A stretch of DNA of 64,000 bases, taken from positions 1 through 64,000 of the forward strand of contig DSBQ01000051.1 of assembly GCA_011045995.1 (NCBI GenBank). Direction: 5' to 3'. The notes below the pieces were generated by a model. It worked only from the letters and a program-made list of their open reading frames with translations. It searched no databases and was not told the DNA's origin. Of this stretch, positions 37,998 to 44,035 are shown in pieces (position 1 is the stretch's first letter; each line of letters starts with the position of its first letter). Both the position numbers and the translations under genes were made by a program. The DNA comes from Methanoculleus sp. GTDB taxonomy: Archaea; Halobacteriota; Methanomicrobia; Methanomicrobiales; Methanomicrobiaceae.

Positions 37998-38767
37998 CAA
38001 ACAGCGTATATTTTGCCTCCTCCTCGAAGGTATGGTCATCCATTGAATGGGTATACGGGATAGAGGAATGCGGATATGACGGCTGGGAAATTTCAGCCGA
38101 CGGAAATTACCGCATTGAAGAGCCGCTGGCGTTTCGCCGGATATGCGAGGTGATAGATACCACGTCACTGGGAATTTCCGTTCATGCGCCATTTACCGAT
38201 CTCAATATCGGATCGTTGAACTATCCCATTTATCAGGAATCGGTACGGCAGTTGTGCGCCTGTGTGGAAAAGGCCGGTGAGATTACCGACCGGGTCACCA
38301 TCCATCCGGGATACATCTCCCCCCACGGGCGCCTTGTGCCGGAAAATGTATGGGAACTGCATAAGGATGCTCTCAGAGAGATAGGCCGATGCGGTATTGA
38401 AAACGGTGTGCTGGTCTGTCTCGAAAATATGCCTGACATTCCTGATTTTCTCTGCAGGATGCCCGAAGAGCTGTTTGGCATGATCGACGGCGTGGAAGGC
38501 GTCGCGGCAACCATTGACATAGGGCATGCAAACACCGTTGGGAAGGTGGATGCATTTATCGGGTATCTGGGCAGTGCCGGGCATATGCATATTCATGATA
38601 ACCATGGTTCCTCGGATGAGCACCTGGCACTCGGTGCGGGGATCATCGACTGGGAAAAGGTCGGAAACGCTGTTAAGAAGCAGTATGGCGGGATATGCGT
38701 GGTTGAAGGGCGAAACCTTGCGGAGGCTGCACAGAGCCTGGATACGTTCAGGAGGTGGTTCAGATAG
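37994..38767 (+). CDS. TIM-barrel sugar isomerase / AP endonuclease 2-like protein
   Basis: 257 residues. The family pattern of metal ligands is visible: SVHAPFTDLN, TIHPGYISPHG, CLENMPD (Glu), ATIDIGHANT (Asp and His), HIHDNHGSSDEH, and final VVEGR. It belongs to the xylose isomerase-like TIM barrel superfamily; archaeal members are of unknown function and could act on a sugar phosphate or an abasic site. It is coupled to UPF0200 at its start and overlaps RNase Z at its end by 13 nt. Confidence 0.85.
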   Translation: MTNSVYFASSSKVWSSIEWVYGIEECGYDGWEISADGNYRIEEPLAFRRICEVIDTTSLGISVHAPFTDLNIGSLNYPIYQESVRQLCACVEKAGEITDRVTIHPGYISPHGRLVPENVWELHKDALREIGRCGIENGVLVCLENMPDIPDFLCRMPEELFGMIDGVEGVAATIDIGHANTVGKVDAFIGYLGSAGHMHIHDNHGSSDEHLALGAGIIDWEKVGNAVKKQYGGICVVEGRNLAEAAQSLDTFRRWFR

Positions 38768-39702
38768 CCGGAGAAACCCTGTATGTCTACTTTCTCGGCA
38801 CAGCGGGGGCTCTGCCCACGATCAACAGGAATCCGTCCTGTATTATGATTCGCAGGGGTTCGGACACGCTTCTTTTCGACTGCGGTGAAGGTGCACAGCA
38901 GCAGATGATGCGCGCCCGGACCGGATTTACCGTCGATGCGATCTTCATCACCCACTGGCATGCTGATCATTACCTTGGAGTGCCGGGGCTCCTGCAGACG
39001 ATGTCATTCATGGGCCGGACCGAGCCCCTGAAAATGTACGGGCCGCGTTGGATACATGAATTCGTTGAGTATGTCGAAGGGATTTCAAAGAATCCGCTTG
39101 GGTTCGCCCTGCAGCCTTATGAACTATCCGAAGGAATGACGGTCCCCTTTGACGGGTATCATGTACGCGCCTTTGCAAGCAGGCACAACACCCTCGGGCT
39201 GGGGTATATCCTGACGGAGGACGAGCGTCCGGGAAGATTCGACCGCGAGAAGGCAATCAGCCTCGGTGTGCCGCCCGGTCCGCTCTTCGGCTGCCTGCAG
39301 AGGGGTGAGTCCGTCACGATTGAATCCGGTGACGGCCGGACGGAAATTGCTCCCGACCAGATTCTGGGCCCCCCGCGTCCGGGAAGAACGGTGGTGTATA
39401 CCGGCGATACCCGTCCGGATTCACGCGGGTGGGCGCAGTATGCGATGGAGGCCGACCTTCTCATTCATGACGCGACCTATGACGATTCTGAGGCAAAGCG
39501 TGCACGTGACGTCTATCATTCCACCGCCGGTGAGGCGGGGCTCGTCGCGCGAGAGATACAAGCGCACCGTCTTGCCCTCGTTCATATCAGTTCCCGGTAC
39601 ACCGGGACGAAAACCCATATACATGATGCAAAAGAACAGTATGAAGGAGAAGTGATCGCTCCGGATGATCTGGAGATGATCGAAATAACCTACAGGAGTT
39701 AA
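38755..39702 (+). CDS. rnz: RNase Z, tRNA 3'-processing endonuclease
   Basis: About 315 residues. The metallo-beta-lactamase motif is THWHADHYLG, with FLGTAGALPT at the start of the core and VYTGDTRPD and HISSRY later. It cuts 3' trailers from pre-tRNAs. The start is unusual: the only in-frame standard codon is a GTG at 38755 inside GGAGGTG, which also looks like the ribosome-binding motif for a start a few codons downstream (no standard codon is there). The gene overlaps the TIM-barrel gene. Confidence 0.92.
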   Translation: MVQIAGETLYVYFLGTAGALPTINRNPSCIMIRRGSDTLLFDCGEGAQQQMMRARTGFTVDAIFITHWHADHYLGVPGLLQTMSFMGRTEPLKMYGPRWIHEFVEYVEGISKNPLGFALQPYELSEGMTVPFDGYHVRAFASRHNTLGLGYILTEDERPGRFDREKAISLGVPPGPLFGCLQRGESVTIESGDGRTEIAPDQILGPPRPGRTVVYTGDTRPDSRGWAQYAMEADLLIHDATYDDSEAKRARDVYHSTAGEAGLVAREIQAHRLALVHISSRYTGTKTHIHDAKEQYEGEVIAPDDLEMIEITYRS

Positions 39703-39721: not shown

Positions 39722-40927
39722 GTGAGGAATGTGCAGGTCCGGATAGGGGGCGTCTCCCGTGCATTCCTTACAGGACTGGCAGCTCTTTTTCTCAGCGCGT
39801 TTGCAGCGAGCGCAGCCGGGATTTACCTTGGATCTGTTTCTGAACTGATCGTCCTTCTCCCCGGGATTATGATCATGGTCCCTCCTTCCATCAATATGAG
39901 GGGGAGCATCTCCGGCGTTCTTGCATCCCGTCTCTCCTCGAGCATGCACCTCGGCGAGTTCGATATGGATTTCTCCGGGGAGGGTGTGCTGGGGTCAAAT
40001 CTCCGGGCCTCCTTTGTCGTAACGGTCATCATTGCATTTGCCCTCGGTCTCATCGCATGGGGGGTGGCTTTGGCATTTGGCATAGAAGGGCTCAATGTCA
40101 TCGACTTTGTTGTAATATCGGTGATTTCCGGTATCCTTTCGGGGGTCATTGTGATGGCAATTACCCTGCTGGTTGCCTATATCAGTTACCGCCACGGTCT
40201 GGACCTTGACATGATAGCATCACCGACGGTGACGACCAGCGGGGATATCATCGCGCTTCCCATGCTTATTCTGACGACGCTTGCGGTTCTCCGGATAAGC
40301 CCTCTTGTCCGGGGAGGGCTCTTTTCGCTCATCATTGTCGGCGCAGCCATCTCGTTCGTCTATGTCATGGCCGGCAACACAAAGGTCCGGGAAATCGGGA
40401 GGGAGATAATTCCTCTCCTCGTTTTTCTCTCCTTCATCGGCACCCTTGCCGGTCTGACGTATACCCTTGATCTGGAACAGCTCGTCGAATTCGGCGTGTT
40501 CCTGATCATCCTCACTCCTTTTACGGGCATGTGCGGGTCAATCGGGGGGATACTTTGTTCCCGCCTGGCAACGGGGATGCACACCGGCGCCATAGAACCT
40601 ACGCTTGTTCCCGAACGAACGGTATTCCTGAAGTTCGGCACGTCCTATGCGTATATCATCATTATCATGCCGCTCATAACCCTGATTGCGTTTGCTTCTG
40701 CGCATCTTCTCGGCCTGGGTTCACCGGATATCGGTTCGCTCTTTCTTGCGGTCGTGCTTGCAGCACTGGTGGTCATGACGCTTGTCAGCATCCTCGCCTA
40801 TGCGACGGCAGGGCTGTCTTTTCGCTATGGGCTCGATCCTGACAATTTCGGGATTCCTGTAATTTCTGCAACCATTGATCTCATCGGGGCGGCAGTTCTG
40901 GTCGGTGTGCTGCATATGCTGGTATAA
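39722..40927 (+). CDS. MgtE-like divalent cation transporter, two membrane domains, no cytoplasmic domains
   Basis: 401 residues, about ten helices. Two copies of an MgtE/SLC41 membrane domain are visible: each has an LLPGIMIMVPPSINMRGSISGVLASRLSSSMH-type stretch (compare FTGMCGSIGGILCSRLATGMH in the second half) and a polar end with ISYRHGLDLD or LSFRYGLDPDN. MgtE's N and CBS gating domains are absent. It probably moves Mg2+ or another divalent cation. GTG starts at 39722 or 39731 are both possible. The next gene encodes a cytosolic PhoU-TrkA-C protein. Confidence 0.85.
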   Translation: MRNVQVRIGGVSRAFLTGLAALFLSAFAASAAGIYLGSVSELIVLLPGIMIMVPPSINMRGSISGVLASRLSSSMHLGEFDMDFSGEGVLGSNLRASFVVTVIIAFALGLIAWGVALAFGIEGLNVIDFVVISVISGILSGVIVMAITLLVAYISYRHGLDLDMIASPTVTTSGDIIALPMLILTTLAVLRISPLVRGGLFSLIIVGAAISFVYVMAGNTKVREIGREIIPLLVFLSFIGTLAGLTYTLDLEQLVEFGVFLIILTPFTGMCGSIGGILCSRLATGMHTGAIEPTLVPERTVFLKFGTSYAYIIIIMPLITLIAFASAHLLGLGSPDIGSLFLAVVLAALVVMTLVSILAYATAGLSFRYGLDPDNFGIPVISATIDLIGAAVLVGVLHMLV

Positions 40928-40981
40928 GCAGAAGCATAATGATAGATACCACCAATTCAATAATATCAGGATTAATCATCT

Positions 40982-42160
40982 ATGACTGAACTAGAGTATC
41001 AGCCGGTCAGTTTTAAGGATGTCCTCATTGAGATGAAGGATATCTCGGAACTCATGGTTGACCTTTCCTATTCTGCCATATTGTTTGAGAGCAGGGAAAT
41101 TGCACAGGAAGTAATTAACCTCGAAGAGAGCATGAACAAGCTTGTCTACCAGGCCAGAATCCAGAGTATTCTCGGCGCCCGGAGAGTGGAAGAAGCGGAA
41201 TCCATGAGCGGCCTTCTGCAGGTATCCGAAGCGGCGGAAAAGATCGCGAATTCCGCATCGGAGATCGCAACCATCATCCTGAAGAACATCAGGTTTCCTG
41301 CCAAACTAAGGCAGGCGCTCCCCGAAGCGGAAGAAGTGACCGTACGGGTTGTGGTTGCGGAGAACTCGGTACTGGACGGGAGGACACTGGGGGAACAGAA
41401 ACTCCAGAGCACCGCCGGGATGAGGGTCATCGCCCTGCGGCGCGGTGTGTCGTGGATCTACAATCCTGACCGTGACACCCGTATCCTTGACGGGGATATC
41501 CTCATTGCAAAGGGTATCGAGAGCGGCATCGCCCCTCTCCATGAGCTTTGCGGTGCAGAGGTGCCGGGGCCGGAAGACCAGCCCGAAGGGGGGGTCGTTA
41601 CCGACCTCGATCGTGCGGTTAAACTGATCGTAAAGATGAAGGATATCTCTGAATTTGCGGTTGGTCTTGCCTACACGTCCCTGCTCTTTAACAACAAGGA
41701 GGTCGCCGATGAAGTGGTCTCGTTGGGTGCGAAGATGGATGATATGCGGTATCAGCTGGATCTCTGGATCCTTGAGGCCTCGCGGAGAATCTCCAATGTT
41801 GAGTATCTTCGGGGGCTTCTCTACATGTCATCATTCGCAGATAATATCACGAATGCAGCGGGTCTTATTGTTGATGTGATTCTCCGCGACATAGAAATAC
41901 CCCCGGTATTCAGGAAGATTGTCCGTGAATCGGATGAAATCATCACGAAGATACAGGTGCATGAGAAGTCTTCGCTTGCTGGAAAGAGCCTGAAGGAAGC
42001 AACCCTCGGCACGGTAACCGGGATGGTGGTACTTGCAATCAAGCATAAATCGAAGTGGAGATACCGGCCCAGAAAGGATGAACGACTTGAGGCCGGAGAT
42101 ATAATTATCGCCAAAGGAAGGCGGGACGGCGAGTGCCGTCTGTACGAACTATCACGGTAA
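40982..42160 (+). CDS. Twin PhoU plus TrkA-C (RCK-C) regulatory protein
   Basis: 392 residues, soluble, with two repeats. Each has a PhoU-like helical bundle (VLIEMKDISELMVDLSYSAILF and LIVKMKDISEFAVGLAYTSLLF) then an RCK-C/TrkA-C domain (VRVVVAENSVLDGRTL ... ILDGDILIAKG and TKIQVHEKSSLAGKSL ... EAGDIIIAKG). RCK-C domains bind ligands and gate ion transporters. It directly follows the MgtE-like transporter, 54 nt away, and both proteins are internally duplicated, so a complex is likely. Confidence 0.88.
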   Translation: MTELEYQPVSFKDVLIEMKDISELMVDLSYSAILFESREIAQEVINLEESMNKLVYQARIQSILGARRVEEAESMSGLLQVSEAAEKIANSASEIATIILKNIRFPAKLRQALPEAEEVTVRVVVAENSVLDGRTLGEQKLQSTAGMRVIALRRGVSWIYNPDRDTRILDGDILIAKGIESGIAPLHELCGAEVPGPEDQPEGGVVTDLDRAVKLIVKMKDISEFAVGLAYTSLLFNNKEVADEVVSLGAKMDDMRYQLDLWILEASRRISNVEYLRGLLYMSSFADNITNAAGLIVDVILRDIEIPPVFRKIVRESDEIITKIQVHEKSSLAGKSLKEATLGTVTGMVVLAIKHKSKWRYRPRKDERLEAGDIIIAKGRRDGECRLYELSR

Positions 42161-42196: not shown

Positions 42197-44035
42197 ATGA
42201 CCGATAATGGTGAAATGATTGTGTACCGACTGGGTACACCGTGCGGACTCAGTGATATTGAGGAGGGAAAAATTTACGAGGCAAAAGTTCAGGGATTTGC
42301 GAATTTCGGAACCTTTGTCTACCTGAATTCCCGGGTCAAAGGGCTGGTCCATAAATCGAACATAAAAACCCGGCATAGTGAAGGAGAGACGGTATTCGTC
42401 AAAGTCCTCTCCATCCGCATCAACGGGAACATTGATCTGCAGGAAGTGGTACCGACAAGGTACCGGCTTGAGACGGTGACGAAGCAACCCTCCAATATCC
42501 GGCTTTCCGAGCTGAAAGACCGGGTCGGGCGTCAGGTGTCCGTAGATGTGGAAGTGGCCCAGATCAAGCAGACCTCCGGTCCGACCATCTTTACCGTGGT
42601 TGATGAGACGGGGACAGAGGACGCCGCCGCCTTCGTTGAGGCCGGCGTCAGGGCCTTCCCGGAGGTGCAGCTCGGGGATATGGTATCGGTATCCGGCGAA
42701 GTCATGATGAGAAACAACCGCCTTCAGATTGAGGTCGGCAACATCTCGGTTCTGGCCGGAGAAGAGCGTGAGGCGGTAGAGAAGAGAATCGAGCGCGCCA
42801 TTGATGAGCGGGCACAACCGGAAGATCTTCCGTTCATGGTGGAAAGTGAGGTGCTCAATCTCCTGAAACCGGAGATGCAGAGGGTCGCAAAGATCATCCG
42901 CAAAGCGATCTTCACCGCCCAGCCGATAATTCTCAGGCACCATGCGGATGCGGACGGAATAACTGCGGCTGTTGCCGTGGAGCGTGCAGTCACAATGCTG
43001 ATCCGGGAGTCCGGCGGCGACCCCGATGCCGAGAGTCATCTGTTTAAACGTGCCCCCTCAAAGGCGCCGTTTTATGAAATTGAGGATGTCACCCGTGACC
43101 TGGATTTTGCACTGAAGGATTTCGTCCGCTATGGGCAGAAACTTCCGCTCATTCTCATGATGGACAACGGGTCGACGGAGGAGGACGAACCCTCGTACCG
43201 CATGGCCAGGATCTATGACATCCCCATTGTTGTTGTGGACCATCACCATCCCGACGAGAGCACGGACGCCTTCCTTGAGGCCCATGTCAACCCATACCAT
43301 GTCGGTGGAGACTTTGGGGTGACGGCGGGGATGCTTGGGGCGGAACTTGCCCGGATGATCTACCCTCCGGTCGAACGTGACATCAGGCATTTTCCTGCGG
43401 TTGCAGCCGTTGGAGACCGGAGTGAGGCGCCTGAACGGCCACGGTATTTGGATCTGGTGGCAGATACGTATTCCGAGGACGAATGCAAGGAGATAGCCCT
43501 TGCCCTTGACTACGAACAGTTCTGGCTGCGGTTCAATGACGGCAGGGAAATTGTAAAAGATATTCTCGGCATCAACCCTGACAAAGAGCGGCACCGGAGG
43601 CTCGTCAAACTACTCGTCTCTGAAGCGAATCTGGCGATTGAGAACCAGCTGAGCGCTTCGATGCCGCACGTTACGGAGCAGGAGCTCCCCAATGGCTCCA
43701 AGCTGTTTACGATTGATGTGGAGATGTATGCCCACCGGTTCACCTTCCCGCCCCCCGGCAAGACATCCGGTGAAGTGCATGATATTCTCTGCAAACGGCA
43801 CGCAGGCTCACCGGTTGTCACACTGGGTCTTGGTCCTGACTTCGTGGTCATCAGGTCACGCGGTGTTATGATGAACATCCCCCTCATGGTCCGGGAACTC
43901 AGGGATGAGGTTATCGGCGGCGGAGTGAACGGCGGAGGTCATCTCGTTGTTGGAAGTATAAAATTCGTCGAAGGAATGCGCGAAAAAGTGATCAAGGAAC
44001 TCATCACAAAGATTGGAGAATTTCCGGCAGAATAA
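42197..44035 (+). CDS. S1-OB-DHH phosphoesterase (archaeal RecJ-like)
   Basis: 612 residues. An S1 domain (residues 20-90, KIYEAKVQGFANFGTFVYL) and an OB-fold (about 100-195) precede the DHH domain with HHADADGITA, MMDNGSTEED and VDHHHPDE, and a C-terminal DHHA1 region ending GGGVNGGGHLVVGS. Archaeal RecJ-like proteins of this layout act as 5'-3' exonucleases or as Cdc45-like GINS partners, or degrade RNA. The DHH metal residues look complete, so it should be active. It follows the PhoU protein by 36 nt. Confidence 0.88.
   Translation: MTDNGEMIVYRLGTPCGLSDIEEGKIYEAKVQGFANFGTFVYLNSRVKGLVHKSNIKTRHSEGETVFVKVLSIRINGNIDLQEVVPTRYRLETVTKQPSNIRLSELKDRVGRQVSVDVEVAQIKQTSGPTIFTVVDETGTEDAAAFVEAGVRAFPEVQLGDMVSVSGEVMMRNNRLQIEVGNISVLAGEEREAVEKRIERAIDERAQPEDLPFMVESEVLNLLKPEMQRVAKIIRKAIFTAQPIILRHHADADGITAAVAVERAVTMLIRESGGDPDAESHLFKRAPSKAPFYEIEDVTRDLDFALKDFVRYGQKLPLILMMDNGSTEEDEPSYRMARIYDIPIVVVDHHHPDESTDAFLEAHVNPYHVGGDFGVTAGMLGAELARMIYPPVERDIRHFPAVAAVGDRSEAPERPRYLDLVADTYSEDECKEIALALDYEQFWLRFNDGREIVKDILGINPDKERHRRLVKLLVSEANLAIENQLSASMPHVTEQELPNGSKLFTIDVEMYAHRFTFPPPGKTSGEVHDILCKRHAGSPVVTLGLGPDFVVIRSRGVMMNIPLMVRELRDEVIGGGVNGGGHLVVGSIKFVEGMREKVIKELITKIGEFPAE

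Follow-up and report, generated by a model that had tools for sequence, protein, structure and literature searches.

The window, a stretch of 64,000 nucleotides from Methanoculleus sp., contains two neighbouring genes on the same strand, separated by 54 nt. The first (39722..40927, + strand) is an open reading frame of 401 aa with a GTG start that encodes a twin SLC41/MgtE-like membrane protein, MG, and the second (40982..42160, + strand; an open reading frame of 392 aa) encodes a twin PhoU+TrkA_C soluble protein, PTC, which is proposed here as a regulatory subunit. MG-A and MG-B denote the membrane halves, and PTC-A and PTC-B the soluble PhoU+TrkA_C units. The pair is flanked upstream by a gene for a metallo-beta-lactamase-fold, RNase Z-like protein (38755-39702) and downstream by one for an S1 + OB + DHH protein that is RecJ-like (42197-44035).

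Three parts can be distinguished within MG, all on the + strand: the MG-A half (39722..40318), delimited by alignment of the halves, conservation and the tree of halves; a linker membrane helix at about residues 194-217 (40301..40372), placed by the AlphaFold helix 194-217 and by comparison of fused with split forms; and the MG-B half (40373..40924), delimited by conservation and by a profile alignment to Thermus MgtE. Two PF01769 (MgtE) stretches, detected with an E-value of 2e-30 and 106 bits against a curated cut-off of 27.6, are the only Pfam content of the window MG, from which CBS and MgtE_N are absent. The halves are 27% identical (E 2e-11), which identifies them as a genuine internal repeat. 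An earlier note on this DNA had described the transporter as two MgtE membrane halves lacking the N and CBS domains, and this description holds, with exact coordinates. The bare twin domain is nothing unusual; double-motif MgtE proteins without CBS domains are a known SLC41-like form, found in archaea and metazoa (review, PMC9276622). A truncated canonical MgtE that lost its domains in this genome is ruled out, since orthologues across archaea have the same layout. Orthologues of both genes are intact throughout the order, and MG is the sole MgtE-type protein of the assembly, which is 82% complete.

The terminal aspartates of the D2 motifs are conserved, D175 of MG-A at 99% and D386 of MG-B at 100%. 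The MG-A of the window deviates from the motifs elsewhere, as its D2 starts with LD rather than PD and its D1 reads GS rather than GN. In a profile search (hmmsearch), MG matches Thermus MgtE with an E-value of about 1e-4, and D386 of MG-B aligns to an aspartate of that protein, placed as D432 by its distance from the C-terminus, which we take to be the selectivity (pore) aspartate. Among the top Foldseek matches listed, only the soluble part is represented, so that the relation of MG to MgtE rests on sequence.

Like SLC41 and the archaeal double-domain MgtE proteins, MG has two MgtE membrane domains without CBS or N domain, and, as in SLC41, the D1 (PX6GN-like) and D2 (P(D/A)X4PX6D) motifs occur twice, with the pore aspartates retained. 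Archaeal MG differs from SLC41 in that the halves are separate genes in many archaea and in that a PhoU+TrkA_C partner is near-universal, none having been found described for SLC41. The membrane domain of canonical bacterial MgtE (Thermus 2ZY9/2YVX, 4U9N) is homologous and has the same pore aspartate, but that protein forms a homodimer and carries MgtE_N and CBS in cis, whereas the two halves of MG have diverged into A and B.

The soluble partner protein

PTC has the domain order PhoU-TrkA_C-PhoU-TrkA_C (Pfam; TrkA_C twice, E 2e-25, and PhoU twice, E 4e-13), with TrkA_C but no RCK_N (Rossmann) domain found in the Pfam search. Its units, PTC-A (40982..41566, + strand) and PTC-B (41606..42157, + strand; delimited by alignment of the halves and by the tree), are 38% identical (E 1e-43) and likewise form a genuine internal repeat, which bears out the earlier description of the second gene as a soluble tandem duplicate of PhoU and RCK-C. 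PTC-A matches PH0236 of Pyrococcus horikoshii over residues 3-191 (E 9e-44), and the model of the window PTC superposes on the PH0236 structure 1vct over 186 columns with an rmsd of 1.9 Å and a TM-score of 0.89 by target length. Judged by this match and by the predicted fold, PTC-A is a member of the PH0236 family. The structures of PH0236 (1VCT, 2BKN, 2BKO, 2BKP) had no function assigned at deposition, the PDB title of 1vct being 'putative potassium channel related protein'. Whereas PTC-A of the window is part of a longer protein, PTC of Thermococci is encoded by two tandem genes, and PH0236 corresponds to one of the two.

After PH0236, the best structural matches to PTC are MthK, KtrA/KtrC, KhtT and GsuK. 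In sequence and modelled fold, PTC belongs to the RCK_C/PhoU type, which gates transporters in trans. An analogy is offered by TrkH-TrkA, KtrB-KtrA, KhtU-KhtT and MthK, in which a soluble RCK_C subunit or ring gates the membrane protein, although PTC has PhoU where RCK_N stands in these RCK-gated K+ systems and pairs with a Mg2+-type transporter. With PhoU of phosphate signalling, PTC shares a three-helix PhoU bundle per unit and conserved acidic helix positions, but each PTC unit has a single bundle where PhoU has two, this bundle is fused to TrkA_C, and PTC is associated with MG and not with a phosphate ABC transporter.

From the perspective of ligand binding, conserved acidic positions are found in PTC-A at E23 (89%), D27 (100%), E48 (96%) and position 94 (99%), while in PTC-B positions 249, 253, 287 and 291 are acidic in 89-96%, the window having G249 and N291. 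The metal-binding bundle of PhoU is presumably marked by E(D)XXXD-type acidic pairs on its helices, and the conserved acidic PhoU positions of PTC plausibly form a putative divalent-metal site, weaker in the PTC-B of the window. As for nucleotides, D167, R169 and N175 of Staphylococcus KtrA contact c-di-AMP (PMC5508000). The equivalents of these residues in a HMMER alignment to 4xtt are K, Q and R in PTC-A and T, G and V in PTC-B, and PTC as a c-di-AMP receptor of the SaKtrA type is ruled out because the signature residues are missing.

Co-occurrence and gene arrangement across archaea

The survey of twin MG and PTC covered 492 genomes belonging to four phylum-level groups of archaea, and the counts are given as both / MG only / PTC only / neither. 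The total is 339/5/2/146 (phi 0.97, not corrected for shared ancestry), with 131/2/1/23 in the 157 genomes of Halobacteriota, 89/2/0/3 in the 94 of Thermococci with Methanofastidiosa, 50/1/1/99 in the 151 of Thermoproteota and 69/0/0/21 in the 90 of Methanobacteriota. The figures for Thermoproteota follow a recheck of four apparent MG-only genomes, two of which carry a diverged PTC beside MG and one of which has both genes decayed. The earlier note had named frequent occurrence of one gene without the other as grounds for rejecting the pairing, and this is not what the survey shows; across it, MG stands alone in five genomes and PTC in two, and six of these seven are fragmented draft assemblies. 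Among 60 relatives from the same order, strong matches to MG and to PTC are found in the same 47 genomes, and 13 lack both. The two genes are unlinked in four of the 47 (G029, G034, G047, G052), yet both are retained, as they also are in G033, where they lie about 3 kb apart. The Fisher values of the co-occurrence are likewise uncorrected for ancestry, and the weight of the co-occurrence lies in the repeated joint absence, in the sparse pattern of Thermoproteota and in the unlinked pairs.

PTC was also found in none of the 19 genomes (3 + 14 + 2) of the survey whose only MgtE is single-domain. Two single-domain MgtE proteins were scanned and consist of MgtE_N+CBS+MgtE (L173) and CBS+MgtE (L174), the remaining ones being classed by ORF length and score. 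As individual cases, MG is interrupted by stops and the adjoining PTC truncated at locus L214 of Thermoproteota G320, an instance of joint decay, and a Bathyarchaeota MAG (G217, locus L148) carries four twin MG copies, with 8 MgtE domain matches.

Gene neighbourhood was compared at 80 PTC loci of distant archaea (Thermococci, Thermoplasmata, Bathyarchaeota, Methanobacteria, Methanosarcina and others). MG lies within the flanks of 55 of these loci and the direct neighbours of the window pair, RNase Z and the DHH protein, near none (0/80); a chance neighbourhood of MG and PTC is ruled out, as other neighbours are not retained. For 20 of the other 25 loci the genomes were searched, and 16 of them carry a twin MG elsewhere; it is missing from three searched MAGs (G198, G202, G207), and G203 has a single-domain MgtE only. 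Where the genes are linked, they may be arranged MG-first, PTC-first, divergently, convergently or with an overlap of 33 bp, and no natural MG-PTC fusion was seen. The adjacency on which the earlier note relied is thus recovered at those 55 distant loci, but it does not extend to several groups, in which the pairs are unlinked.

PTC as a proposed regulator of MG

A functional partnership of MG and PTC is strongly supported by the patterns described above. Our preferred reading, to which we give a probability of about 0.72, is that the pair constitutes a two-component archaeal transport system for Mg2+ (divalent cations) in which PTC controls the SLC41-type MG. PTC is most likely a cytosolic subunit dedicated to the regulation of MG in trans, in the role that MgtE's own N and CBS domains have. 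Gating of a membrane partner in trans is established for RCK_C proteins (TrkH-TrkA, Ktr, KhtT, MthK), and canonical MgtE is gated by its own Mg2+-sensing domains (N, CBS); it is because of the former, and because MG is without the latter, that PTC is read as a regulator in trans. The logic of Mg2+ homeostasis would, by analogy, be common to canonical MgtE and the pair, although PTC has no homology to the MgtE N or CBS domains. The earlier suggestion that PTC replaces the missing domains would fit both its lack from the genomes with single-domain MgtE only and the CBS domains of the two scanned proteins. What we infer in this reading is that the two proteins bind directly and that PTC gates MG, as well as the identity of the ligand and of the transported ion and the direction in which that ion moves.

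According to the mechanism proposed, MG would be an SLC41-type pseudo-dimer of two MgtE-like five-helix halves co-oriented by the linker helix, with one cation path lined by one aspartate from each half. As MG has no sensing domain of its own, control would pass to the soluble PhoU+TrkA_C protein, whose two units, whether fused, encoded separately or formed by repetition of one, probably dock pseudo-symmetrically on the cytosolic face of MG. Binding of a ligand to PTC might then close or open MG, much as canonical MgtE is controlled by its N and CBS domains; our first guess for this ligand would be a divalent metal bound by the acidic bundle of PhoU, and the second a nucleotide at the TrkA_C pair. 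In AlphaFold read-through pseudo-complexes the domains were well modelled, but the two proteins were not docked with confidence (pTM 0.55 for the window and 0.61 for Methanobacteriaceae L165); these models are linker-forced and built on shallow, mostly unpaired alignments, and constitute weak evidence either way. Of the earlier proposal that the second protein is the gating subunit of the first, the partnership is upheld by the survey counts, whereas binding and gating remain a proposal.

An alternative is that PTC acts in the same pathway of magnesium or ion homeostasis without binding MG, for instance as a soluble metal or nucleotide sensor with another target, or as a chaperone or buffer that binds metal. 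The conserved acidic positions on its PhoU-type bundle, the lack of docking in the pseudo-complexes and the unlinked genes of several lineages are consistent with such a role, but it appears unlikely in view of the overlapping genes, of linkage in several orientations and of the fact that PTC goes with the one transporter type that has no regulatory domains in cis, but does not go with single-domain MgtE. A regulator of a potassium channel or transporter, whose tie to MG would be an inherited neighbourhood, is what the TrkA_C domain, the matches to MthK, KtrA/KtrC, KhtT and GsuK and the title of 1vct might suggest. Against it stand the absence of RCK_N from PTC, a co-occurrence that persists when the genes are unlinked and through joint losses, and the other window neighbours, which are not retained, and we consider it very improbable. 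Hardly credible is a co-occurrence due to common descent of an old operon alone, without functional tie. The tree distances of MG and PTC do correlate (rho 0.65), as those of any co-inherited genes would; shared ancestry confounds this value, and we do not count it as proof. The lack of both genes from 146 genomes spread over the four groups, the joint decay in G320, the several layouts of linkage and the neighbouring genes for RNase Z and the DHH protein, which are not comparably retained, all argue for more than co-inheritance.

Both the bare twin transporter and, as a theme, trans sensing subunits were already known; what is new, and strongly supported, is PTC as the partner of MG. In the open-access literature, neither a published description of PTC as an MG partner or of the pair, nor experiments on binding or transport by MG or PTC, were found. 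If the regulatory reading is true, it would give a function both to an archaeal protein family that is widespread and uncharacterised and to PH0236, the partner's relative with a crystal structure but without function, and one Mg2+ transporter family would use either cis regulators (N/CBS) or an unrelated trans regulator. Regulation of the SLC41 type and its count of 10 or 11 helices are open questions (PMC12941325, PMC13022745), and the archaeal pair offers a system that is tractable, thermostable in some cases, and comes with a named partner.

Halves, fusions and membrane topology

All four fusion states of MG and PTC exist: four separate genes (L128, L141, L172, L223), split MG with fused PTC (Methanosarcina, haloarchaea), fused MG with split PTC (Thermococcus, Bathyarchaeota), and both fused, as in the window. 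Methanobacteriota have one PTC, A-type in the tree, with a twin MG. In the tree of halves, MG-A (89 sequences) and MG-B (100 sequences) part without error (support 0.875), and PTC-A and PTC-B part (support 0.60) save for five fast-evolving Thermoproteota twins (L216, L218, L220, L224, L227), whose B units fall among the A units. Mapped on the respective trees, the fusion state switches a single time in MG and five times in PTC. According to these trees and state changes, A and B are paralogues of ancient origin in both proteins, and fusion took place later, in separate events. The 'matching duplication' invoked by the earlier note is thus by itself weak evidence for pairing, and the single PTC unit beside a twin MG in Methanobacteriota does not match.

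A 2+2 composition, MG-A and MG-B with PTC-A and PTC-B, is suggested outside Methanobacteriota, in which a PTC-A homodimer would be needed. A broader version, in which an archaea-wide 2+2 system gates the archaeal relatives of human SLC41, with the acidic bundles of PhoU sensing cytosolic Mg2+ or another divalent metal and the TrkA_C pair a second signal, and in which the ancestor of eukaryotic SLC41 had such a separate regulator and lost or replaced it, is possible but doubtful. At several methanobacteriotal loci (L121, L139, L142, L152, L155, L157, L158, L162, L164, L165, L167, L168) the single PTC-A gene precedes the twin MG, and many of these MG proteins have an extended N-terminus, possibly in place of PTC-B.

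The AlphaFold model of MG contains 11 long helices, read as 5+1+5. Split MG-A and MG-B have five helices each, the C-terminus lying 17 residues (median) past the D2 aspartate, as measured in 58 cases for split MG-A. Of 96 fused forms, 99% have an extra hydrophobic segment separating the two halves, a segment that is absent from the split homologues; a sixth helix belonging to split MG-A is ruled out, as that protein stops after helix 5. Sequence comparison and model support a same-orientation 5+1+5 topology, in which the linker helix would bring the chain back across the membrane and leave both halves co-oriented, as in the MgtE homodimer. In human SLC41A1, 10 versus 11 membrane helices are disputed (PMC12941325). 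The topology of MG bears on this dispute, since halves that are naturally split as 5+5 or fused as 5+1+5 favour the 11-helix, same-orientation arrangement.

The junction between the halves also varies in detail. Among L042-L046 and L033-L041, some groups have MG-B beginning in frame immediately behind the MG-A stop codon, and in Methanosarcina-like genomes split MG-A and MG-B are joined by an ATGA-type overlap. In G029 (L073, 1764-2969), a single in-frame TGA lies between twin MG halves that are fused in sister genomes, which reflects either a recent re-splitting or a sequencing error.
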